From an uncultured Bacteroidales bacterium (GTDB taxonomy: Bacteria; Bacteroidota; Bacteroidia; Bacteroidales; Paludibacteraceae): a DNA stretch of 40,169 nucleotides. Positions 4,761-37,068 of the stretch are shown in pieces (position 1 is the stretch's first letter; each line of letters starts with the position of its first letter). The notes under the pieces are model-generated. The model was not told the origin of the DNA and did no database searches. It was given only the letters and a program-made list of their open reading frames with translations. The DNA is taken from contig CACYHE010000017.1 in the NCBI GenBank assembly GCA_902774185.1, forward strand, positions 1 through 40,169. The letters are read 5' to 3'. A program made the translations under genes and the position numbers.

Positions 4761-6527
4761 TCACTTTACGAACGCGCCTTGCGCATTATAAACCTTCTCT
4801 CCGCGGAGGATGAAGATCTGGCCGTTATGGAGGATAAGCCTACCTCTGTCTCCTCCCTGAAGAGAAGAGGAAACATTGTCAATTCCTGTTGGCATCTGCG
4901 ATGCCCCTTGGATGTCGAACTCCTGCCAATAGGTATCGTTCTCATAAGCCGAAACAGCCTCGTCCGGTACATAGACAGGGATCTGGCGCTTCACATCGAA
5001 GAAGGTCTTGGCTTGAATAGAAGGAGGCGTAACGGAATTGACGGTAATCTTCTGCAGTTTGGCGCAGAGTGCAAAAGTATTATCTCCGATAGTCTGTACT
5101 GACGACGGCAGAACCATCTCTTCCAGATACGTACAGCCATAGAAAGCTCCATCGCCGATTTCCGTTACACCTTCGGGAATAACGAGATTCTGCAGTTCGT
5201 GTGCGTTATAGAACGCCCAGTTGCCGATGCGGCGGAGTTGGCTGGCAGAGGCTGCAGGCGCATTGAATCGTCCGGGAGCGCCGGCAGGTGCGCCACCAAA
5301 AGTGATGGACTTGATACTACGACAATCCTCAAAAGCGGATTGCTCAATTTCTTCTACTGAAGCAGGAATGTCGATGGATTGCAGGTTCTTACAACCGGCT
5401 ACCATCATATAACTTACTTTCTGCAGACCTTCCGGCAATACCAATTGTTGCAGGTTATAGTAACCTTTGAAAGCCTCGTCCGCAAACTCCGTGTTCGTTA
5501 CACCTGACACATCCAATGTCTGGAGTGTCTTGTAAGAGCGGTTGATGAACAATAATGCATTCTCCGTTAATTCGCCGCCATTGACAGTTACATGGTTTAA
5601 GATCTTCGTATAAGAAGGCCAGTTACCTTCCGGAATATCAAAGAATCCTGCCGGAGCCTCCATAGTGGTCAAACCGGTGCAACAATAGAAAGCATAATTT
5701 CCAATGCTGGTGACGCTATTGGGAATGGTCACAGAGGTCAAACCGGTGCAATTATAGAAAGCCCCCTCTCCAATGCTTGTGACACTATTGGGAATGGTAA
5801 CAGAGGTCAAACCGCTGCAACCATAGAAAGCACTACTTACAATGTTTGTGACGCTATTGCCAATCGTCACAGAGGTCAAACTGCGGCAATTATAGAAAGC
5901 AGCATATCCAATGCTGGTGACGCTATTAGGGATCATCACAGAGGTCAAACCGGTGCAATCACGGAAAGCCTCATCTCCAATGCTTGTGACGCTATTGGGA
6001 ATCTCAATATCACCTTTAGCAGCCTTAGAACACGCAAGTAAATTTGTTTTTGTTGCATCGCCATAGACTAAATATCCCTCAACATATCCATTCACGTTCT
6101 TTGCTCCCCATGGCGAACCGGTTGCAGAGCCAGAATAGACTATATTTGGGACACCACTGAAAGCATAATCTCCAATGCTTGTGACGCTATTGGGAATAGT
6201 CACAGAGGTCAAAGCGGTGCAATTCCGGAAAGCATAATCTCCAATACTAGTGACGCTATTGGGAATCGTCACAGAGGTCAATCCGGAGCAATACTGGAAA
6301 GCATAATTTCCAATGCTGGTGACGCTATACGATACGGAATCGCCAGTCACAGAGGAAGGGATAATAATTTCTCCGCTCGCACTGCTATTTCTAGCCACTT
6401 CAGCCGTATGGTTGGTGGCATCGAGGTTGTAATACAGGTTGCCGATTTGGACTCTTTCATAGTCCCAAGCGAACAAAGTTCCTACGCTGGCTGCTACAGC
6501 GAGCAATAGGGTAAAGAGTTTTTTCAT
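4761..6527 (-). CDS. BspA-type leucine-rich-repeat secreted protein
   Basis: The 588-aa protein begins with a Sec signal peptide ([20 protein letters not shown]). It is then built of 23-residue treponemal/BspA-type LRR units of the form [23 protein letters not shown]: about eight near-identical units at residues 65-285, one interrupted by a spacer around 130-175. Diverged units follow up to about residue 510. The C-terminus, from TGIDNV through [25 protein letters not shown], is a module common at the end of exported Bacteroidales proteins; the 126-aa protein at 38277-38657 ends similarly. BspA-like proteins are surface adhesins in oral and gut Bacteroidota; the exact ligand cannot be told. 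No clear TAnnTTTG box is seen immediately upstream. Confidence 0.9.
5690..6310. repeat. 69-bp tandem DNA repeats encoding LRR units
   Basis: Near-identical units containing AATGCTTGTGACGCTATTGG and CACAGAGGTCAAACCGGTGC recur every 69 bp, with one interruption near 6000-6150. DNA-level conservation makes unit gain and loss by recombination likely. Confidence 0.85.
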
Positions 6528-7254: not shown

Positions 7255-7374
7255 CAAACAACATCAAACCATTTCAAACAACATCAAACAACATCAAACC
7301 ATTTCAAACAACATCAAACAACATCAAACCATCTCAAACAACATCAAACAACATCAAACCATCTCAAACAACAT
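7255..7374 (+). repeat. Twelve-unit decamer array in the 5' leader
   Basis: Twelve consecutive 10-bp units alternate as CAAACAACAT, CAAACCATTT (or CAAACCATCT), CAAACAACAT, giving a 30-bp higher-order period. The array fills the leader between the promoter and ATG 7381, ending 6 nt before it. Confidence 0.9.
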
Positions 7375-7380
7375 ACCATT

Positions 7381-8340
7381 ATGAACAAATTCTTCTACTT
7401 CATTGCTGCCACATTGATAGCTGTCAGTTTCGCTTCTTGCGAACAAAACAAACCGTCTCAACCCAAAGACGATGATGACGATTCCCCCAAGGAACCGACG
7501 TACTATCACAAGGATCCTGTGGAAGGCTGTCTGCCGGGTTTGTTTGCGGTCAGTGAGACCCAGCAGGTTTATTTCTCCAAGGGTAATTTATGGTACTCCA
7601 AACTGAATTTCGATAGTCGTTGGGAGTTTGCGGTACAACAATACCGCGTGTTGGGTGAGAGTAATTTGGACATAGCAGACATGCCGAGTTACAGTGCCAT
7701 CGACCTCTTTAACTGGAACACCGCCAATGATCCGACGCGTCATGAGGCAGATGATTATGTTGGTGATTTTGAAGACTGGGGTGACAAGCCTATTTATAAC
7801 GGTGGTAATACCGAAGGTCTCTGGCGTACGCTGACGGGCGATGAGTGGCTTTACCTCTTCCATGGTCGTCCCAATGCAGACAAACTCTTCGGTCACGGAT
7901 GTATCGCTGAGAATGAGATCGATACCGTGAATGGTGTCTTCCTCTTCCCGGATAACTGGGAGGAAATCAAACCGGAAGGTTTTGAGTTCCAATCCTGTGC
8001 AGACATGGGTATGGTATGGGGAAAGCAGGATGGTGTAGTGGCAGAAGGTTATTACCAAAACATATTCTTCTACGGCTATAGACAAAACGTGTACGATATG
8101 GATATGTGGCAAAAACTGGAGGAACTCGGCGTTGTCTTCCTGCCGGCTGCCGGTTTACGTACTTGGAAACAGGATACCTATATTGTATCTTTGGATTTTA
8201 TTAATACATATGGTTATTATTGGTCTGCTTCCGCTGCGGGTGATAGGTCTGCATACAACTTGCTATTCGCATGGTTTGCGCTTTGTCCCAAAGCGTATAA
8301 TGGTCCGCATTACGGTTGTGCCGTTCGTTTAGTGCGTTAA
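7381..8340 (+). CDS. Secreted lipoprotein with FISUMP/C-type-lectin-like domain
   Basis: The 319-aa protein has a lipoprotein signal with the cysteine in VSFASC (about residue 20), then an acidic linker (DDDDDSP). A single domain follows with the pattern VYFSKGNL, IDLFNW, DWGD, DEWLYLFHGRPNADKLFG, VNGVFLFPDNW, GVVFLPAAG, YYWSAS and CAVRLVR. It resembles the Fibrobacter-succinogenes-major-paralogue type of C-type-lectin-like domain. The protein at 37348-38280 carries the same domain. It is expected to be anchored in the outer membrane; its ligand is unknown. The gene stands alone behind promoter module copy 1 and a 120-bp decamer leader. Confidence 0.8.
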   Translation: MNKFFYFIAATLIAVSFASCEQNKPSQPKDDDDDSPKEPTYYHKDPVEGCLPGLFAVSETQQVYFSKGNLWYSKLNFDSRWEFAVQQYRVLGESNLDIADMPSYSAIDLFNWNTANDPTRHEADDYVGDFEDWGDKPIYNGGNTEGLWRTLTGDEWLYLFHGRPNADKLFGHGCIAENEIDTVNGVFLFPDNWEEIKPEGFEFQSCADMGMVWGKQDGVVAEGYYQNIFFYGYRQNVYDMDMWQKLEELGVVFLPAAGLRTWKQDTYIVSLDFINTYGYYWSASAAGDRSAYNLLFAWFALCPKAYNGPHYGCAVRLVR

Positions 8341-11622: not shown

Positions 11623-12942
11623 ATGAACCTATTTGCAGCCAGACTAACCGGTAAAATGCTCTCGACGGATGCGTTCGAGAAAGAAATTGCGGACATGCAA
11701 GCGCGTGTCAAACGTTGGCGTGCCATTGAGAAATCGCCCGAGTTGGCGGAGTACAATGAGCTGAAGAAGATCGTTGAGAGTCCCGATTTTCAGGAGCACA
11801 AGAACGAGCTTGAGAAGCGTAAGTACAAAGACACGCAAGAAGGAAAGAAGATGATGGAATACGAGGCATTAGCCAACTCTTCCAGCATTCGCAGTTACCG
11901 TCGTGCGCTCAATGACAAGGAGTTTCAGGACTTCCTCGTTTTCCGCGAGTCAGAGGATTTCCAGAAGATCAAGAGCCTCAAAGCGGTTCTTACCGATCCG
12001 GTAATTCGCAAGTACAACATGTTGTACTACTCGTCCAAATACAAGAACTATCTGAAGATGCTCAATTCGCCGGACTTGAAGCGCTTGGCTGATTTGGAGG
12101 AGGAAGTACACACGGAGGATTTCCAGAAGCGTCATGCCGTATGGGCAGACAGCAAGCGCTGGCAGCACTCGGATGATTACAAGACCTATGCACGTTTCCA
12201 GGAGTTGGCGAACTCGGAGGACATCAAGTTCTTCTTTGAGTCCCGCAACGAGAAAATCGACTGGGCTGAGTTGTACCGTCCGGCTTTTGACGACGACATG
12301 TCGGGCAACAAGAACTGGAAGCCGGGTTACGGTTACGCCAATCCGGCGATGAAAGACGGTCATTCGCGCACCAACGAATTGCAGGCTTACAACAACGGCA
12401 AGAACACTTTCTTCGCTGAAGGACGTATGGACCTGGAGACCCGCAACGAGAGCAAGAAAGCTATCGCTTGGGACGAGAAGAAAGGCTTTGTAGAGCATAC
12501 GTTTGCCTATACCTCCGATGTGATGAACACGAAAGAAGCGTTCATGCAAGAGGAAGGTTTGTTCATGGCGAAAGTGCGCAGTCAGGGAAGTGGTCATCAT
12601 TTCTTCGGTCTCTCGACCGGCAAGCCGGGCAATCCGATGATCGCATTGTATCACTTCAACGGCAGCCGTCCTCAGATGGGTCTGATTCAGGGCGACCGCA
12701 CGCAAATGGCGGATCTGACCGGTTTACTGCCTGCCAACTATTTCTACTTCATCTATTCCTTCCGTTGGACGAAGCACGAGTTGATCTGGTACGTCAATAA
12801 TCTGGAGTTGCTCCGTTTGCCGAACAGTCTGCCGAAAGAGGCGATGTTCATGCTGGCGCAGTCGTTCCTGCCGGCAACCGAGAAAGGCGGCGAAGGCAAG
12901 CTGAAAGTGCGTTGGGCAAGAGTTTACCGCTCGGTTGAGTAA
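11623..12942 (+). CDS. Helical-repeat protein with C-terminal ConA/GH16-like beta-sandwich domain
   Basis: The 439-aa protein has no signal peptide. Residues about 25-215 are charged helices with a recurring short motif (SPELAEY, SPDFQEHK, SEDFQKIK, SPDLKRL, TEDFQKRH, SEDIKFF), about every 20-30 residues. Residues about 230-435 look like a laminarinase-type jelly roll (WAELYRPAF, FFAEGRMDLETRN, LFMAKVRSQGSGHHFFGLST, FYFIYSFRWTKHELIWYVNN), but I see no ExDxxE catalytic motif, so it is probably a binding fold. Architectures like this occur as conserved hypothetical proteins in Bacteroidales. It follows the LOG gene by 3 nt. Confidence 0.75.
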   Translation: MNLFAARLTGKMLSTDAFEKEIADMQARVKRWRAIEKSPELAEYNELKKIVESPDFQEHKNELEKRKYKDTQEGKKMMEYEALANSSSIRSYRRALNDKEFQDFLVFRESEDFQKIKSLKAVLTDPVIRKYNMLYYSSKYKNYLKMLNSPDLKRLADLEEEVHTEDFQKRHAVWADSKRWQHSDDYKTYARFQELANSEDIKFFFESRNEKIDWAELYRPAFDDDMSGNKNWKPGYGYANPAMKDGHSRTNELQAYNNGKNTFFAEGRMDLETRNESKKAIAWDEKKGFVEHTFAYTSDVMNTKEAFMQEEGLFMAKVRSQGSGHHFFGLSTGKPGNPMIALYHFNGSRPQMGLIQGDRTQMADLTGLLPANYFYFIYSFRWTKHELIWYVNNLELLRLPNSLPKEAMFMLAQSFLPATEKGGEGKLKVRWARVYRSVE

Positions 12943-12975
12943 ATCGTAAATGGTAAATGACTAAATCGTAAATAG
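12940..12975 (+). repeat. AATCGTAA-type leader repeat before kdsA
   Basis: TAAATCGTAAATGG, TAAATGAC and TAAATCGTAAATAG run from the previous stop codon to 4 nt before the kdsA ATG. The first TAA is the stop codon of the upstream gene. Confidence 0.7.
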
Positions 12976-20500: not shown

Positions 20501-21679
20501 CTCCAGACACTGCAGCTGTCCGAAAGTGGTGGCGCTCATGAACCATAACCGACCGGCTGCATCATACGTGGCAAAGTCCACACGGGTATAGCGGTCCGGC
20601 AGATTAGGATCAAGTGTGATAAGCGTGTTGTTCCCTCCGGCTATCTCTTGACGAACCACCGCATCGTTCTTGAACTCATACAGCCCCGTTCCGTAACTGG
20701 TGACGAAATAGTGCGTCTTGTCTTTCGGATCAACCGCCACGTTCATAAAATCCAAGCATACATGACCGGTCTTCGCTTCGGTGACTGCCGCTTCGACATT
20801 CGTCCATTGCTGCCCGTCGTACCGCATCACGATACCGGGTCTGTTATACTCCGAATCCCATCGACCGCCGGGCACCACCCATATGTTACCTTGTGCTGCC
20901 GTGATGCGGTAAGGTGTGTTGACGGCAGGACCTGCCGGCTTGTAACTCATCCATTGTTTGGTCGCTTTCGTATAACGTTTGATACCTTCTCCGTAACCGG
21001 CGTACCAGATATCCTTCGTGTCGTCATACTCGATCCCTTTCTTGGCGTCCGGCGTGATACGGTTTCCGCGTTTCTCCCGTTTCCAATAATTGTAATCGGA
21101 TACATTATCGTTTAACGATGCGCAGTACATACTATCTTCGGCGAACGCGTAGATACTGTCTTGGACGATACGGACATCTTGGATCGGCGTCTCCTGACCA
21201 GCGGGACGTAACCAATAGCTGTCCACTAACTTCCGCTCCTGCAGATCCATCGTCTGCACACCGTAATGCGTAGATAAATACGCCGTTCTGCCGGAAATAG
21301 TGACGTTGTAGATTGTCTTGCGTTGCGTCATCTCTTTGTTGTACAGTTCGCTGATATACTGCACTCCCTGTTCGGTCAGCACATCGATCTTACCGTCTGA
21401 GTAACAGATCAACAACTGTTTGCCCTTCGTGTCGTAATGGATACAGATGATACCTGTGCCGTGCAAACCCGACAAGCGGTTATATACCTTCACCTGTTCC
21501 GACTGCTTCTCCACGCTAAAGAGACTGCCGTCAGAGATGGCAAACACTTTGTCTTGCGACACAGCGATCTGCGTCACGTTGTTATACGCAAAATGGGTTC
21601 TCCACATCGGACCTGCCTGTACTAGTGCAGATAGCAGGGAACCCAACATAATGACTGCGATGTATTTATATTTGATCAT
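17600..21679 (-). CDS. porZ: PorZ-like type IX secretion protein, internally duplicated (two beta-propeller units plus CTD)
   Basis: After a signal peptide (MIKYKYIAVIMLGSLLSALVQA), residues 23-599 form one PorZ-type propeller unit (WRTHFAYNNVTQIAVSQDKV, RLSGLHGTGIICIHYD, YSDGKIDVL, DIWYAGYGEGIKRY, KGRIWMATDQGI). A linker encoded by 8-bp repeats (about 600-618) follows. Residues 619-1280 repeat the whole pattern (WRLHFCYSDPQEIAASDKRV, KSTGLNGTSVSHIAYDE, YNDGRIDLL, NRIWIGTEKGI). The end, AYPNPVRPDYGG...YGRRATPGVYTALC...VVKIMVIR, is a type IX C-terminal domain. PorZ acts at the cell surface with PorU in the T9SS attachment complex and is usually near 750-800 residues with one such unit; 1359 residues is about double. 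The start overlaps the rdgB stop by 4 nt. Confidence 0.8.
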   Translation of the reverse strand: MIKYKYIAVIMLGSLLSALVQAGPMWRTHFAYNNVTQIAVSQDKVFAISDGSLFSVEKQSEQVKVYNRLSGLHGTGIICIHYDTKGKQLLICYSDGKIDVLTEQGVQYISELYNKEMTQRKTIYNVTISGRTAYLSTHYGVQTMDLQERKLVDSYWLRPAGQETPIQDVRIVQDSIYAFAEDSMYCASLNDNVSDYNYWKREKRGNRITPDAKKGIEYDDTKDIWYAGYGEGIKRYTKATKQWMSYKPAGPAVNTPYRITAAQGNIWVVPGGRWDSEYNRPGIVMRYDGQQWTNVEAAVTEAKTGHVCLDFMNVAVDPKDKTHYFVTSYGTGLYEFKNDAVVRQEIAGGNNTLITLDPNLPDRYTRVDFATYDAAGRLWFMSATTFGQLQCLEKNGTWHSVDVAADGSLLAAHTPACLILDNRNSRHKWIATARYNTFVCLLDDGGTPFDNTDDKTIRRSEWTDQEGNTFKPSFINDMMQDSKGRIWMATDQGIAYIETTDYFHSDAIVRPVVMDNNGENPTRSLIFKALCEASDGSIWAGTETLGIYVLNEDATEITKHLTTDNSAMPANGILSLACADNGHIFIGTAEGLVEYDANGWGEGLNGSEDEGENGLEDGSMQRWRLHFCYSDPQEIAASDKRVYAAANGALFCVNRADESIDYWSKSTGLNGTSVSHIAYDEQSNQLVIAYNDGRIDLLSDDDDVTQMPDLYMKAGSIAVTINCLTAGSRYTYAGTSFGIIAINTRKGEVADTYYIGQEASSVDVRAIIEQGDSLYVFSTNKLYKAALSDNLVDYAFWSADTIQGGDVQQAAAWQNQLYILQHDSLYRQTGDTWQLVLGEPIRWMSANDGQMLVYTDKGLFRLKDDYTPEGLSDRYAMNTACFTKGEYWVAELNWGLIKLDVNGDHIFHTEGPNSNFGYSMHAANGHIYSTVGGRWSTEFIREARINIFDGYNWRGISAYDILADLGVWTLDAVSVAVDPTDAGHFYVAMYGCGVVEFRDFKAVKQYMPNNSTLTSVDPTNPEFYTRTDGAMMDEEGNLWVLNATNSAAGKPVHVLTPNGIWYGLRLRSNGTDIAFTTPTGIWPDRRGSRYKWMFDQRYSQGVVLFDDGGTPTNNSDDYCVKRSSFVDQNGTLLAPSNFNCFAQDHTNRIWIGTEKGIILIPETVDFFQSNACRRIIIPRNDGTGLGDYLLGDEQVTCMAVDGGNRMWIGTANSGLYLIEDDTITAAHFTEYNSLLPSNSIQSITIVPTTGEVFVGTGKGIASYRSDASDPAETMSGAYAYPNPVRPDYGGVISICGLMDNTVVNIVDAAGNLVCKTRSHGGTAVWDGNDAYGRRATPGVYTALCNANGGHTVVKIMVIR
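19826..19881. repeat. 8-bp repeats encoding the linker between the two PorZ units
   Basis: Seven consecutive 8-nt units of the type TTCATCCT/CTAATCCA/TTCACCCC encode most of GWGEGLNGSEDEGENGLEDGS. The units resemble those at 28113-28152 and 32764-32795. Confidence 0.65.
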
Positions 21680-22341
21680 TCTGAAGGATTTAACAGTTTA
21701 ACGAGTTCTGCGAGTGCTCTGGCCCGATGACTGATGTTGTTTTTTATCTCTGCAGGCAGTTCGCCGAAGGTCTTGTCGTACCCTTCGGGAATAAAGAGCG
21801 GGTCGTATCCGAAACCTCCTTGCCCGTACTCCTCTTCCGCTATCCGTCCCCGAACGATACCGCTCACCTGAATGTCTGTGTTCTCAAAAAGAATCAGCGT
21901 GATAACGGTTCGGAACTGTGCGCCTCGGTCTTCTTTGTCAGCCAGTTCGGTTAAGGCTTTCTTGCGGTTCGCCGCAAAAATCATCATTTCATCATTAAGC
22001 GCAGCGCTCATTCCGTCATTCAATCGGTACCACCTTGCCGTATAGACACCCGGCTTACCGCCCAAGGCATCGATCTCCAAACCCGTATCGTCGGCAAAAA
22101 CGCCATCAATAGATTGACGATTGGACGATTGACGATTGGACGATTGACGATTGGACGATTTTAACCATTGGCAAACGGTTTCAGCTTTGATTTTACTATT
22201 CTCTTCAAGCGTCGTACCGTTCTCTTCGATCTCTTGCTCAAAACCGATGTCGTGCAGACTCAGCACGTCGATACCGGCAGGCATAATATTTCTCACTTCT
22301 GCCAACTTATGGGCGTTATTTGATGCAAAAACAAGTGTCAT
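21676..22341 (-). CDS. rdgB: Non-canonical purine NTP pyrophosphatase (HAM1/RdgB family), with two repeat-encoded insertions
   Basis: ATG 22341 (MTLVFASNNAHKLAEVRNIM) is the family's usual start and lies just after a -7 box (22359-22366); the longer open frame is rejected. The enzyme hydrolyses ITP/dITP/XTP to monophosphates. Motifs are FASNNAHKLAEV, GTTLEENSKIKAE, FADDTGLEIDALGGKPGVYTARW, GGFGYDPLFIPEGYDKTFGE and SHRARAL. Two stretches do not belong to the family: residues about 61-77 (SSNRQ repeated three times) just before FADDTG, and residues about 107-120 (LNDGMSAALNDEMM) after the ARW loop. Both are encoded by repeats and keep the frame. Its stop overlaps the porZ start (ATGA). Confidence 0.92.
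   Translation of the reverse strand: MTLVFASNNAHKLAEVRNIMPAGIDVLSLHDIGFEQEIEENGTTLEENSKIKAETVCQWLKSSNRQSSNRQSSNRQSIDGVFADDTGLEIDALGGKPGVYTARWYRLNDGMSAALNDEMMIFAANRKKALTELADKEDRGAQFRTVITLILFENTDIQVSGIVRGRIAEEEYGQGGFGYDPLFIPEGYDKTFGELPAEIKNNISHRARALAELVKLLNPSE
21982..22023. repeat. NDEM repeat element, copy inside rdgB
   Basis: The arrangement is CATCATTTCATCATTAAGCG, core, then CGCTCATTCCGTCATTCAA, matching the vapE element at 1839-1884 apart from a shorter core and a few changes. It encodes LNDGMSAALNDEMM. Confidence 0.75.
22112..22160. repeat. 15-bp tandem repeat inside rdgB
   Basis: Three exact copies of GATTGACGATTGGAC plus a partial unit encode (SSNRQ)x3. On the minus strand the first 21 nt differ at one base from the intergenic leader at 27302-27322. 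Confidence 0.85.
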
Positions 22342-27284: not shown

Positions 27285-27322
27285 AAAATGATTTACGATT
27301 TAACGATTTACGATTGGACGAT
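27285..27322 (-). repeat. AATCGTTA-type leader repeat before the alarmone-synthetase gene
   Basis: The minus strand reads AAATCGTCCAATCGTAAATC then GTTAAATCGTAAATCATTTT up to the ATG. Its first 21 nt, counted from the preceding stop codon, differ at one base from the rdgB-internal repeat. Confidence 0.8.
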
Positions 27323-27625
27323 TTATTCGATGACGAATAGGCTCACAAATCCCGTCATCATGAATACTTGACGGATATCGGCGTTGATATTCCGAACAAT
27401 TACCTTACTGCCGTGTGCTGCGGCTTCCTTGCGGATACTGAGGAAGATACGCAAACCGCTTGAGGAGATGTATTCCAACTCCGTACAATCCAAGATGATC
27501 TCTTTGTTCGCTGCTTCCAACAAAGGTTTTACTTCTTCTGCGGTCTGTACAGCTGCGGCTGTATCTAAACGTCCGCTAAAGAACGCAAGCACTTGGTTTC
27601 CGTTCTCTTGAATAGTTGTCGTCAT
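27323..27625 (-). CDS. STAS-domain anti-sigma-factor antagonist
   Basis: This is a 100-aa single STAS domain of the SpoIIAA/RsbV class: VLAFFSGRLDT, IILDCTELEYISSSGLRIFLSI with the phosphorylatable Ser in ISSSGL, and FMMTGFVSLF. In partner switching the unphosphorylated form binds the anti-sigma kinase. The upstream gene encodes both the PP2C phosphatase that would reactivate it and an RsbW-like kinase domain, and overlaps it by 4 nt, so the three activities form one module. Confidence 0.92.
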   Translation of the reverse strand: MTTTIQENGNQVLAFFSGRLDTAAAVQTAEEVKPLLEAANKEIILDCTELEYISSSGLRIFLSIRKEAAAHGSKVIVRNINADIRQVFMMTGFVSLFVIE

Positions 27626-29658
27626 AATTTTTTAACTAAAGTTAATATGTTTTGATTATTTATTCGTTCGTATTTTACTTCATCCATGATCTGACGCACC
27701 AGATGGATACCCAGACCGCCTATAGGACGTTCTTCCGCACTCAGCGTAATGTCCACTTCTTCCTTCTGCGTCGGGTCAAAAGGCACACCGCTGTCCGTGA
27801 TGGTGAAGACAAGTTGTTCGCCTTTCGCCACTTCGACTAACACTTGTCCGCTCTGTCCCGGATATGCATACAGCATCACGTTCGTTACCGCCTCTTCGAT
27901 GGCGATGTTAATCGGTGTGTTCAATTCCTTCGGAATATCAAGGCTGTCTATCCACTCCGCCAAGGTAGGGATCTGCTGGATGTCATTGCGCATAATCAAT
28001 GCCGGCAGTTGATACCGTATCGCCATCATCGTCAAGTCATCGCTTTGTTCTGCGCCATCAACAAACGCCTCCACCTCTGCCTGCATCTTCTCCACCAGTT
28101 TGTGAGGAGCCACTAACCCCTTCATCCCTTCATCCGTTAATCTCTTCATCATTCGCTCTTCTCCGAACTGCTCGTGTGTACTGCGTTCCGCCTCAGTCAG
28201 GCCGTCGGTGTATAAGAACAAAAGGTCGTTGTATGCCATCTGTACCTGCTGTGCCTGGAACACCCATTCCCCTTCCACGCCTAAGGGTAAGTTCGGTACT
28301 ACATCCAGCATCTGTGTTCTGTGTTCTGTATTCTGTATTCTTACCGGTGCATTATGCCCTGCGTTGCAGTAATCCAACCTGCCCGTTTTGCAGTCTAAGA
28401 TACCGATGAAAAGGGTGAGGAACATGTTCTGCGTGTTCTGTTCAACAAAGGCTTTGTTCATCTTCGTCATCACCGAAGCCGCATCTTCATCGTGCGAAGT
28501 GATGGAGCGGAATAAGGACCGTGTCATTGCCATCACCAGCGATGCCGGTACGCCCTTACCGCTCACGTCACCGATACAGAAGAAGAGTCTGTCGTGCCGA
28601 ACGTAGAAATCATACAGGTCTCCGCCTACCTCTTTGGCAGGTTTCACCGTACCATAGACATTCACATTCCTCAGGTCGTTGAAGGGAGGGAAGACTTTCG
28701 GCAGCATCGCCGTCTGAATCGCTCCGGCTACGTATAACTCATTCTCCATGCGTTGGTTCTTCGCCGTCGATTCCAGAAGTTTCTTGTTCGTGCGGGACGA
28801 GTGAATCAGCATCATCGCCAAAAGCGCCAGACCCAGTAACATCAGTATGCCGACGATACGACCGGTATGGTTCAGGTCCTTGAATAACTCATCGTCCGGA
28901 ATGACAATCTCGATATGCCAACCCGTAGCATCGATCTCTTCGTTGTATGTATTGTATCTGCGCCCGGGCACTGTGTCCATTGCACGTACGATGTCACCGC
29001 CTTTGCTTGAACGAATCGAGAAATAACTGTTCTTATAAACCTGCAGATATTCCGGTAGTTTCTGTTGTAGATAATCCAGTCGCATATCGACACATACCAC
29101 GGCTACCACTTCGCCTTGTGCGTTGCAAACAGGGTAGGAACAACTGACCACCGGAGCCTCCGAACCCGAATCATCCATGTACGGTTCGCACCACCAACAA
29201 CTGTCGTGCACAAAACCGTTCTGCCACCACTCCATCTCCGTATAGTCGTGTGCGGCACTGCCTATCTGACGGGTATAGACACTATCCTCCGTGATCCGAC
29301 TACTACAGGCTTCGAAATAACGACCTGCCTTCGGGAAGTAATCCGGTACATACGCCACAGCTACACTGGTGAAGGTACGCATCGTACGAACTGCCAAGTT
29401 CGTTGCTGCATAGACCGAATCGGGACAATCGATATGTTTCTCCACCAGTAAGGCCAAGGTCTTAGCGGTCGTCTCCATCTCGATTGTGTGTAACTCAATC
29501 TCCAACTCCGCTTTGCGTAACTCCGTCTTTGCACGCATATCCGCCTCTTGACGAATTGCTGCACGACTGGTGAAATACATGAGACATGAGATGGCTTCCA
29601 GCGCAATGCTTGCCACAATCATGATCCATAATCCCGAGTGGTTCTTCTTCTGACTCAT
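27622..29658 (-). CDS. Membrane sensor fused to SpoIIE/RsbU PP2C phosphatase and RsbW-like kinase
   Basis: The 678-aa protein has TM1 (about 10-30), a periplasmic Cache-like sensor (about 35-265), TM2 (about 270-290) and a SpoIIE-type PP2C domain (about 325-540) with EVGGDLYDFY, IGDVSGKGVPASL, NAGHNAP and EQSDDLTMM. A C-terminal HATPase (about 550-678) follows, with NIAIEEAVTNVMLYAY and GGLGIHLVRQIMDEV. Fusing the phosphatase and the anti-sigma kinase with a STAS gene next door implies a self-contained partner switch controlled by a periplasmic signal. Residues about 440-449 (RIQNTEHRTQ) and 503-515 (KRLTDEGMKGLVA) are encoded by tandem repeats in frame. No cognate sigma factor is seen here. 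Confidence 0.9.
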   Translation of the reverse strand: MSQKKNHSGLWIMIVASIALEAISCLMYFTSRAAIRQEADMRAKTELRKAELEIELHTIEMETTAKTLALLVEKHIDCPDSVYAATNLAVRTMRTFTSVAVAYVPDYFPKAGRYFEACSSRITEDSVYTRQIGSAAHDYTEMEWWQNGFVHDSCWWCEPYMDDSGSEAPVVSCSYPVCNAQGEVVAVVCVDMRLDYLQQKLPEYLQVYKNSYFSIRSSKGGDIVRAMDTVPGRRYNTYNEEIDATGWHIEIVIPDDELFKDLNHTGRIVGILMLLGLALLAMMLIHSSRTNKKLLESTAKNQRMENELYVAGAIQTAMLPKVFPPFNDLRNVNVYGTVKPAKEVGGDLYDFYVRHDRLFFCIGDVSGKGVPASLVMAMTRSLFRSITSHDEDAASVMTKMNKAFVEQNTQNMFLTLFIGILDCKTGRLDYCNAGHNAPVRIQNTEHRTQMLDVVPNLPLGVEGEWVFQAQQVQMAYNDLLFLYTDGLTEAERSTHEQFGEERMMKRLTDEGMKGLVAPHKLVEKMQAEVEAFVDGAEQSDDLTMMAIRYQLPALIMRNDIQQIPTLAEWIDSLDIPKELNTPINIAIEEAVTNVMLYAYPGQSGQVLVEVAKGEQLVFTITDSGVPFDPTQKEEVDITLSAEERPIGGLGIHLVRQIMDEVKYERINNQNILTLVKKL
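28113..28152. repeat. 8-bp repeats inside the rsbU-like gene
   Basis: Five units, TAACCCCT, TCATCCCT, TCATCCGT, TAATCTCT and TCATCATT, lie end to end and encode MMKRLTDEGMKGLV. They share the unit type with 32764-32795. Confidence 0.75.
28313..28340. repeat. 7-bp repeats inside the rsbU-like gene
   Basis: TGTGTTC twice then TGTATTC twice encodes RIQNTEHRTQ, in the loop between NAGHNAPV and MLDVVPNLPLG, where relatives have a short turn. Confidence 0.85.
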
Positions 29659-29661
29659 TCG

Positions 29662-29697
29662 TCTTTCAACTTTAAACTTTCAACTTTCAACTTTAAA
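29662..29697 (-). repeat. GAAAGTT-type leader repeat before the rsbU-like gene
   Basis: The minus strand reads GTTTTAAAGTTGAAAGTTG then AAAGTTTAAAGTTGAAAGAC before the ATG at 29658. The units are like those at 32391-32439. Confidence 0.75.
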
Positions 29698-31183: not shown

Positions 31184-31218
31184 TTTAATTATCAATTATC
31201 AATTGTCAATTATCAATT
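31184..31218 (-). repeat. AATTGATA-type leader repeat before the Omp85-like gene
   Basis: The minus strand reads AATTGATAATTGACAATTG then ATAATTGATAATTAAA before ATG 31183. The array includes the stop codon of the upstream DUF819 gene. Confidence 0.8.
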
Positions 31219-32385: not shown

Positions 32386-32390
32386 ATATC

Positions 32391-32439
32391 TTTAAACTTT
32401 CACCTTTCAACTTTCACCTTTCAACTTTCACCTTTCAAC
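32391..32439 (-). repeat. 14-bp leader repeat that also encodes the acyltransferase C-terminus
   Basis: Three copies of CTTTCAACTTTCAC (with CACC variants) span the intergenic gap. The last copy encodes the acyltransferase end QLKGES and its TGA at 32421. Confidence 0.85.
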
Positions 32440-33377
32440 TGATACAGGTATTCCTGTACAAACATCCAAAACGGTAACGGAATCAACAGTGTGATGGTCA
32501 AAAACACCAACTGCCAGACATACATCACCGAGTTATGGAACGCCCGATCTTTCACTTTATGCTGTATATACAGCCACATGCCCCATAAGGGTATCGTCAC
32601 CACCGCACTTACCGCAAACACCGGACTCAGCACGATTGCCAAGGGGATGGCTAACCAGCGTGGTAACTTCCCTTCACCTCTAACCTCTAACCTCTCACTC
32701 ACTAACCCGTTCATCCGCTTGGTCAACTCCTCTCGCAGCGCCATCATCAGTCGGGGTTTACATTCATCCGTTAATCCGTTCACCCCTTCATCCCTTACGA
32801 ACGCCGTCACGTTTATCGCCTCGCCTATCGTCACCTTCACGCTCGTCCATAGATGGAAGAAATCGCCGTACTCGATGCCTACCGGCACGATATAGATCGG
32901 TTTGTCTTGTCCGAACGAATCATTGGCTTGCAGCGCAATGCGGAAGATACCCTTACTCAACGGTAGTATCGTTCGGTCGGGGTGGTGGGTTCCTTCTGCG
33001 AAGATACAAAACGGCACGCCGTCCCGTAACACCTCCACCGCCTTGTTTATCGTCTCGTCGTTATGCCTTACCTCTTCCCAACCGTCGCGCACCCGATTGA
33101 TCGGCATAATCTTCAACCAGTTTAAGATCTTCGCTTTCTTCGGGTCCTTGAAGATATCCGCTCGGGCAACAAACACTTTCTGTCCGTGGTCGATCCCCAA
33201 TACCGCCATGGCGTCGCAGAGTGCGTTCGTGTGGTTCGGCGCAAAGATAACCGCCCCATCGGTAGGTATCTTCTCCAAACCCTCATACCGAAAACTGCGA
33301 TACGACTGCCGGAACAACCAATCGACATACGGCCTCAAAAAAGCATACAACCCATCCTTATCCTGTATCTTTCCCAT
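32421..33377 (-). CDS. PlsC-type glycerophospholipid/lysophospholipid acyltransferase
   Basis: The 318-aa protein has the acyltransferase blocks NHTNALCDAM (His and Asp of the catalytic motif, residues about 49-56), KKAKILNWLKIMPINR and FCIFAEGTHHPDRTILPLSKG, followed by a helical pair near the C-terminus (LAIVLSPVFAVSAVVTIPLW and VWQLVFLTITLLIPLPFWMF). It likely transfers acyl chains to glycerol-phosphate lipids at the inner membrane. Residues 194-205 and 220-234 are encoded by 8-bp and 7-bp repeats, and the last residues (QLKGES) by the leader repeat of the next gene. It lies 6 nt after the SLC13 gene. Confidence 0.9.
   Translation of the reverse strand: MGKIQDKDGLYAFLRPYVDWLFRQSYRSFRYEGLEKIPTDGAVIFAPNHTNALCDAMAVLGIDHGQKVFVARADIFKDPKKAKILNWLKIMPINRVRDGWEEVRHNDETINKAVEVLRDGVPFCIFAEGTHHPDRTILPLSKGIFRIALQANDSFGQDKPIYIVPVGIEYGDFFHLWTSVKVTIGEAINVTAFVRDEGVNGLTDECKPRLMMALREELTKRMNGLVSERLEVRGEGKLPRWLAIPLAIVLSPVFAVSAVVTIPLWGMWLYIQHKVKDRAFHNSVMYVWQLVFLTITLLIPLPFWMFVQEYLYQLKGES
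32677..32718. repeat. 7-bp and 8-bp repeats inside the acyltransferase gene (element 1)
   Basis: CCTCTAA twice and CCTCTCA are followed by TAACCCGT and TCATCCGC. It encodes MNGLVSERLEVRGEG. Confidence 0.8.
32764..32795. repeat. 8-bp repeats inside the acyltransferase gene (element 2)
   Basis: TCATCCGT, TAATCCGT, TCACCCCT and TCATCCCT are contiguous and encode RDEGVNGLTDEC. Units match those in the rsbU-like gene. Confidence 0.8.
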
Positions 33378-35189: not shown

Positions 35190-35193
35190 CCCC

Positions 35194-35214
35194 AATTATC
35201 AATTATCAATTATC
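35194..35214 (-). repeat. AATTGATA-type leader repeat before the SLC13 gene
   Basis: The minus strand reads GATAATTGATAATTGATAATT directly before GGGGATG. The array starts within the stop codon of the upstream gene. Confidence 0.8.
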
Positions 35215-36701: not shown

Positions 36702-37024
36702 CAAAAAAAATCTCATATATGCAAGAGTCGAAAGAAAAAAGTCGAAAGGAAAAAGCAAAAAGACAGAAAAATCGCCCGTTTTGGACGATTTTTTATGATT
36801 CAAAGGGGTGCGTTTGTTTGTATTCAAATTGGAGAGAGTTGAATTTCCACGACCAATGGGTTCCGTTTTTTTTGCTGTGGATCCTATTGATCGCGGATGC
36901 TGTTTCTGTTTTTGCCATATAAAAGATGGTTTAAATGTATATTATATATAAATATATAATATAGTAAATATTGCTTAAAAATGGGTTCATTTTTAGTCTG
37001 ACAGATGCTTGACGTTACTATTGA

Positions 37025-37068
37025 CTGTCGGTTGACCGTCGGTTGACCGTCGGCTCACTGTCGGTCCA
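37025..37068. repeat. Four 11-bp tandem repeats
   Basis: CTGTCGGTTGA, CCGTCGGTTGA, CCGTCGGCTCA and CTGTCGGTCCA lie end to end, downstream of the 310-aa secreted-protein gene. Confidence 0.8.

Follow-up and report, generated by a model that had tools for sequence, protein, structure and literature searches.

The rdgB locus and its two inserts

The window, i.e., the whole stretch of 40,169 nucleotides analysed here, carries an rdgB gene (Table 1) whose product is matched by the Ham1p_like family PF01725 over residues 3-215 with a score of 191.5 bits (cut-off 22.5). The protein retains the columns that are invariant over 55 sequences, e.g., D84 D85 T86 G87 and H205 R206, and is thus a member of this family. 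Gaps are opened at two sites in its alignments to the three solved relatives shown. Judged from the alignments, both stretches are insertions with respect to these relatives and to orthologues outside the clade delimited below, and the reading frame is kept at each; their initial description as foreign to the RdgB family is therefore upheld.

The first insert (site 1) is an exact in-frame tandem array, as had been proposed, for which TRF returned a period of 15, 3.3 copies and 100% matches over 22112-22160, with the three SSNRQ copies encoded by positions 22114-22158. Its unit is composed of a heptamer and an octamer (GATTGAC + GATTGGAC), and its self-match of 34 bases at lag 15 compares with a maximum of 12 (lags 5-30) among 50 Markov-1 randomisations of the window. 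The fold of this array gave a z of -0.57, and its unit is not palindromic as are those of Rickettsia palindromic elements (RPEs). The initial annotation had also pointed to the leader of an ‘alarmone synthetase’ gene as nearly identical to this insert. The gene label is fair, the gene that follows the leader being a RelA_SpoT match, and the likeness of one mismatch in 21 bases holds for 27303-27323 against 22125-22145, whereas the placement at 27302-27322 that accompanied the claim gives two mismatches.

The second insert (site 2), for which relatives carry the longer form NDGMSAAAPLNDEMM, is a weak repeat when the window alone is examined (best lag run 8), and is recognised as a repeat element because copies are present in other species. 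It is a different, hairpin-centred element and not a leader repeat, and the suggestion that a sequence of leader type had entered RdgB twice is consequently not supported.

Table 1. Location of rdgB, its inserts and further short-unit arrays in the window
Position	Strand	Feature	Remarks
21676..22341	-	rdgB, non-canonical purine NTP pyrophosphatase (Ham1p_like), 221 aa	stop included; Pfam match and solved relatives
22112..22160	-	site 1, exact 15-bp (7+8) tandem array	residues 62-76, SSNRQ x3, directly before DGVFADDTGL
21982..22023	-	site 2, insert LNDGMSAALNDEMM	residues 107-120, after TARW; AATGATG-type units around short GC stem
27285..27325	-	array of the site-1 unit family	intercistronic, between STAS gene and RelA_SpoT gene
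28311..28329	-	heptamer array, ACAGAAC family	in frame in SpoIIE-domain gene 27622-29658
32676..32695	-	heptamer array	in frame in acyltransferase-domain gene 32421-33377
29663..29694	-	CTTTCAA heptamer array	intercistronic
31187..31218	-	AATTATC heptamer array	intercistronic
32390..32440	-	CTTTCAA/CTTTCAC array	intercistronic, extends into neighbouring ORF as listed
35193..35214	-	CAATTAT heptamer array	intercistronic
12939..12973	+	GTAAATC-type degenerate heptamer array	intercistronic

Seven-base arrays in gene gaps and open reading frames

The wider distribution of such arrays was determined in a 440 kb sample of the window genome, comprising the window and a further 400 kb of this draft assembly, in which ORFs were called crudely. 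A total of 106 arrays were listed, i.e., 28 intergenic, 32 at ORF edges and 46 well inside ORFs of at least 100 aa, although two of the latter, one a Q-rich run and the other a 21-mer, appear to be unrelated. There is a clear excess of period 7: lag-7 runs of at least 11 number 88, compared to 2 in a Markov-3 null and to 1, 4, 12, 9, 10 and 10 at lags 5, 6, 8, 9, 10 and 11, respectively, and periods of 7, 14 and 21 are prominent in both gaps and ORFs. The 88 lag-7 arrays, which comprise 41 unit classes, prefer gaps, with 40 being intergenic (0.976 per kb) and 43 located in ORFs (0.108 per kb); similarly, bases in lag-7 runs of at least 9 amount to 22.5 per kb in gaps and 2.30 per kb in ORFs (2.1 and 0.35, respectively, for lag 6). 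The orientation of the intergenic arrays yielded no clear bias (35 sense and 23 antisense, by our own labelling).

Seventeen of the 43 in-ORF arrays have a unit class in common with an intergenic array, well above the sharing obtained when letters were shuffled within units at constant composition (mean 2.2, maximum 7 of 2000) or when coding heptamers were drawn instead (mean 0.54, maximum 4 of 2000), which bears out the claim that the unit family of the first insert also sits between genes. In eleven of the 43, a unit read through all frames would include a stop. RdgB is not the singular case that it had been taken for, as 18 of 20 chosen array-bearing ORFs had a Pfam match, including DXR, RsmH/MraW, Mfd, an enzyme with both GT28 domains, a SpoU methylase and FBPase_2. 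For example, RsmH of the window genome possesses extra repeat-rich residues in three loops when compared to the two solved relatives shown, and among its homologues, which were found in all 41 genus genomes (30 aligned), those of other species carry other repeat-like inserts at the same three loops. The array-bearing DXR exceeds its best solved match by four residues and the second by none; it is thus barely longer than its solved relatives, and an array is therefore not always an insertion by length.

The 15-mer of site 1 has 19 occurrences in the window genome, distributed over 14 sites, eight in ORFs (two in one ORF) and six in gaps as delimited by the crude ORF caller, so the proposed direction from leader to protein is not supported. 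It is read in several frames, yielding the peptides SSNRQ, IVQSS and NRPIV and the antisense peptide DDWTI, and is present in 6 of the 41 genus genomes, with 16 hits in G002 and four in G030. When the 12 stretches of G002 and the four of G030 were compared to the 14 sites of the window genome together with their 1.5-kb flanks, no orthologous pair was observed, the comparison returning only short matches (34-79 bases) and one protein match of 26% identity. Such a pattern might be produced if, within this clade, short tandem arrays were actively copied from one locus to other, unrelated ones, also in coding DNA, with loops of the proteome being continually rebuilt from repeat DNA. We regard this reading as rather less likely than not; if it is true, the distribution of the 15-mer over 14 sites of one species and 12 stretches of another, among which no orthologous pair was seen, would represent the footprint of copying. 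The clustering of arrays into a few unit families could come from sequence-dependent slippage instead of copying. As a separate observation, the 15-mer encodes NRPIV x3 in the ORF of locus L291 (G002:C3:58743-61944), which presumably encodes an aspartate kinase (VVVSAMGKTTNALE).

Turnover of repeat families at the two RdgB sites

Of 61 genomes, that of the window included, 56 yielded an RdgB, and 80 named loci of 214 were kept, titled Paludibacteraceae or Bacteroidales and in many cases derived from ruminant guts according to their titles. An RdgB ORF was present in 110 loci, 109 of which were aligned (L087 was excluded owing to its open frame of 1211 aa), corresponding to 93 distinct sequences. 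Site 1 comprises only three to four residues (YHC-like) in 12 rows, approximately ten plain residues in much of the genus (e.g., LVGRQMQDKI and LTDNSLLDSV) and up to 28 residues in repeat-bearing rows, while site 2 adopts short AGEPAA-like forms in 51 of the 93 and elsewhere spans 13-44 residues. Lag runs of at least 9 were recorded at site 1 in 18 of the 93 distinct orthologues and at site 2 in 8, as against 33 of 3504 core windows. Repeat types labelled by eye at site 1 in different species are the NDG hairpin element, another 15-mer, and AATCGTC, AATGGAC, GTCGAAA, GTGAAAG, CAGTCAG-type and GGTTACG units, while those at site 2 are NDG, EPTLTLP, NTDRSADRTQ, RSPQK, AATGGAC and AAGG; in total, 40 of the 93 rows were labelled as repeats by eye at site 1 and 23 at site 2. 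Both sites are thus hot spots that hold many unrelated repeat families.

The plain loop of about ten residues bears on whether site 1 is simply an ancestral variable loop that looks repetitive and never received an insertion. This loop is common in the genus outside the repeat-bearing clade and to that extent favours such a reading, yet repeats at site 1 are about twentyfold above the core windows, near relatives carry different families, and the units are common to gene gaps, making this explanation very improbable. The initial annotation had named ancestral loops as the finding that would overturn it, and this applies to the loop and not to its repeat residues: site 1 is an older plain variable loop which has been overwritten by repeats.

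In a tree built from core columns, every repeat-labelled row falls within one 55-row clade with a support of 96/95. Full repeat-family labels, which were set by eye with weak cases included, require at least 30 state changes at site 1 and at least 28 at site 2, while a plain yes/no label requires 11 and 14, respectively, on a topology whose bootstrap is unsettled and which recombination may distort. Among close pairs, the site-1 arrays of L080 and L082 (core 96.2% identical) are exactly 21 bp, i.e., three heptamers, apart in length, and their site-2 sequences are of different types; the former is the only clean unit-step indel seen within RdgB, and further copy-number changes between relatives were seen in the leader of the gene next to rdgB. 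Clear heptamers are present in L075 and L127 where L028 and L056 show blurred ones. L074 and L088 (core 95.6% identical) carry different site-1 families, with the site-2 insert missing in one of them, which, on comparison of the sequences, suggests exchange between species rather than slippage. An octamer array of the AATGATGG type and of variable length spans the end of rdgB and the leader of the next gene in L065, L074, L088, L095 and L097, and units of this type are also present at RdgB site 1 in L095 and L097. Octamer indels of 48 bp and 24 bp, considered as in-ORF changes, were rejected as such, being located at the end of RdgB and in the leader of the next gene.

Rapid turnover of both loops in a conserved enzyme, with gene exchange seemingly mixing them, might also be expected of an adaptive tuning or contingency device in which loop length alters the activity or interactions of RdgB. 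Similar arrays occur, however, in many unrelated enzymes, and frame switching is impossible with a 15-bp unit; we therefore judge this to be improbable. Since the window genome and its relatives are draft assemblies, in which tandem repeats are error-prone, the arrays might in principle represent artefacts of metagenome bins, but near-identical genes from separate records agree fully or almost fully in their arrays (L024/L067, L058/L098 and L066/L069), and an artefactual origin appears extremely improbable.

The taxonomic extent of the arrays was assessed for 32 genus genomes, 26 of which were assigned to the clade or outside it by their RdgB in the tree while six were placed by us (G006 counted in; G011, G023, G024, G028 and G029 out): the 14 genomes counted to the clade, excluding that of the window, contain 37 lag-7 arrays in 494 kb, 26 of them in ORFs, and the 18 counted outside contain 11 in 426 kb, two of them in ORFs. 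Four of the 14 are without any lag-7 array in their 20-40 kb, while outside the clade G019 and G017 possess four and two, respectively, in 20 kb, none in ORFs. Nine other families of the order presented a single lag-7 array in 660 kb of stretches.

Hairpin elements and the origin of the arrays

Certain elements at the RdgB sites contain hairpins. The hairpin GAATGAGCGCGGC..GCCGCTYAATGATG is represented by nine copies in 6 of the 41 genus genomes, with none in the window genome and none in a reversed control. All nine copies are located in ORFs, five in RdgB and four in other ORFs, and are read in the same frame (GMSAA-PLND), a count obtained with a strict pattern that may favour the coding form. 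Three of the non-RdgB hosts are presumably a mannose-phosphate guanylyltransferase, an RluA-type synthase and Mfd, and the fourth is a 601-aa ORF. In some species, site 2 of RdgB holds a 108-bp two-hairpin element (L075:1034-1141), with diverged relatives elsewhere in four genomes (G061-G064); the window genome contains one short match to it. Ten copies of this element were retrieved, three in RdgB, three in no ORF of at least 60 aa and four in ORFs of 63-190 aa that are unconvincing as genes.

The nine hairpin copies in ORFs with their single frame and peptide, together with the dispersed relatives of the 108-bp element, an 80-base part of which folds with a z of -4.05, would be in keeping with protein-coding mobile elements like RPEs, i.e., discrete palindromic cassettes with a fixed frame and a set peptide. 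Against this stand the heptamer arrays, which are without a palindrome and occur in several frames and on both strands, the short NDG hairpin, which is no more stable than shuffles (z -0.97 and -1.05), and the 108-bp element, of which the copies other than those in RdgB lie outside convincing genes. Elements of this kind are therefore a rather unlikely explanation.

We consider it probable that the inserts result from slippage at the DNA level with some copying of arrays, tolerated in unconstrained loops. Under this explanation, tandem repeats of 7-8 bp units would arise and spread at the DNA level within the clade that includes the window genome, and the arrays would grow and shrink by unit steps via slippage or unequal recombination, a process which is suggested by the one RdgB pair described above. 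The recurrence of unit families at unrelated places in the genome points to some copying between arrays. Array density is about nine times lower in coding DNA than in the array-rich gaps, and the frame-keeping remainder in coding DNA may be what selection leaves. A unit of 7 bp cycles through three frames, and the frame is therefore kept by a 7-bp array at changes of 21 bp and by the 7+8 compound at changes of 15 bp. Sites 1 and 2 of RdgB would tolerate repeat DNA, with families repeatedly gained, blurred and replaced, and SSNRQ x3 would represent a fresh, i.e., exact, array of a family found in gene leaders too; no RdgB function would be needed to account for the inserts. Weighing against this explanation are the four clade genomes whose sampled 20-40 kb contain no lag-7 array, the arrays of G019 and G017 outside the clade, the eleven in-ORF arrays with a stop-containing unit and the near-normal length of DXR. 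Mismatch-repair loss was rejected as a cause, mutS1 matches being found in 40 of the 41 genus genomes (38 above cut-off).

Heptanucleotide SSRs have previously been described. TAACTGA heptamers are reported from one Beggiatoaceae genome, mostly in positions immediately preceding start codons, and two heptamer sets from Paludibacter; in another Bacteroidetes strain, a putative PurC gene contains one two-copy set close to its end, so that in-gene cases are known (PMC4679880); the same paper cites Mrazek 2007 for heptamers being the commonest class, with slippage proposed. Heptamers are also described between genes in Xanthomonas (GGGAATC) and, with similar units, in Nostoc, with the G-rich repeats of these genera being under-represented in coding regions (PMC4692102). 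As described in these two papers, such SSRs resemble the present arrays in consisting of 7-bp tandem units that are repeated over numerous loci and frequently lie in gaps close to genes; those of the window genome differ in that about half of the lag-7 arrays are within ORFs, several in conserved enzymes, and in the coexistence of as many as 41 unit classes. According to a review, RPEs are approximately 150 bp in length, each with an ORF that gives a conserved peptide, and are inserted in frame within unrelated genes (PMC10969869). By that description, the likeness is one of repeated DNA in frame inside unrelated genes, while the present arrays consist of non-palindromic 7-15 bp units in several frames, and any resemblance to an RPE is confined to the hairpin element, which is shorter. 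The 108-bp element is akin to REP/MITE sequences in its hairpins and dispersed copies, but a REP-associated transposase is not supported as the mover, no Y1 transposase (PF01797) match being found in the window genome (87% complete); PF01797 was matched in 16 of the 41 genus genomes, 12 above cut-off. The RdgB case is best classed as a variant of heptanucleotide repeats, in which SSR-type DNA has an RPE-like placement, rather than with the RPEs. A search of titles and the starts of abstracts, in a library with few subscription journals, found no paper that deals specifically with in-frame heptamer arrays of Bacteroidales.

This clade offers a natural experiment on how non-coding repeats become protein: with exact, blurred and replaced repeats in two loops of one enzyme across many species, the birth, tolerance and loss of protein segments become measurable, and the old question of why bacterial repeats favour seven bases can now be tested in coding DNA. 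It also serves as a warning that, in such genomes, orthologues may differ in their loops merely through repeat noise.

The window contains further repeats, i.e., four near-perfect 30-bp repeats of 10-bp units (CAAACAACAT) at 7255-7374, which immediately precede the ORF at 7381; two arrays at 5667-6328 in ORF 4761-6527, with a repeat length of 69 bp (23 codons), probably encoding a repeat-domain protein; and four copies of the 11-bp unit TTGACCGTCGG in a gap at 37021-37065.
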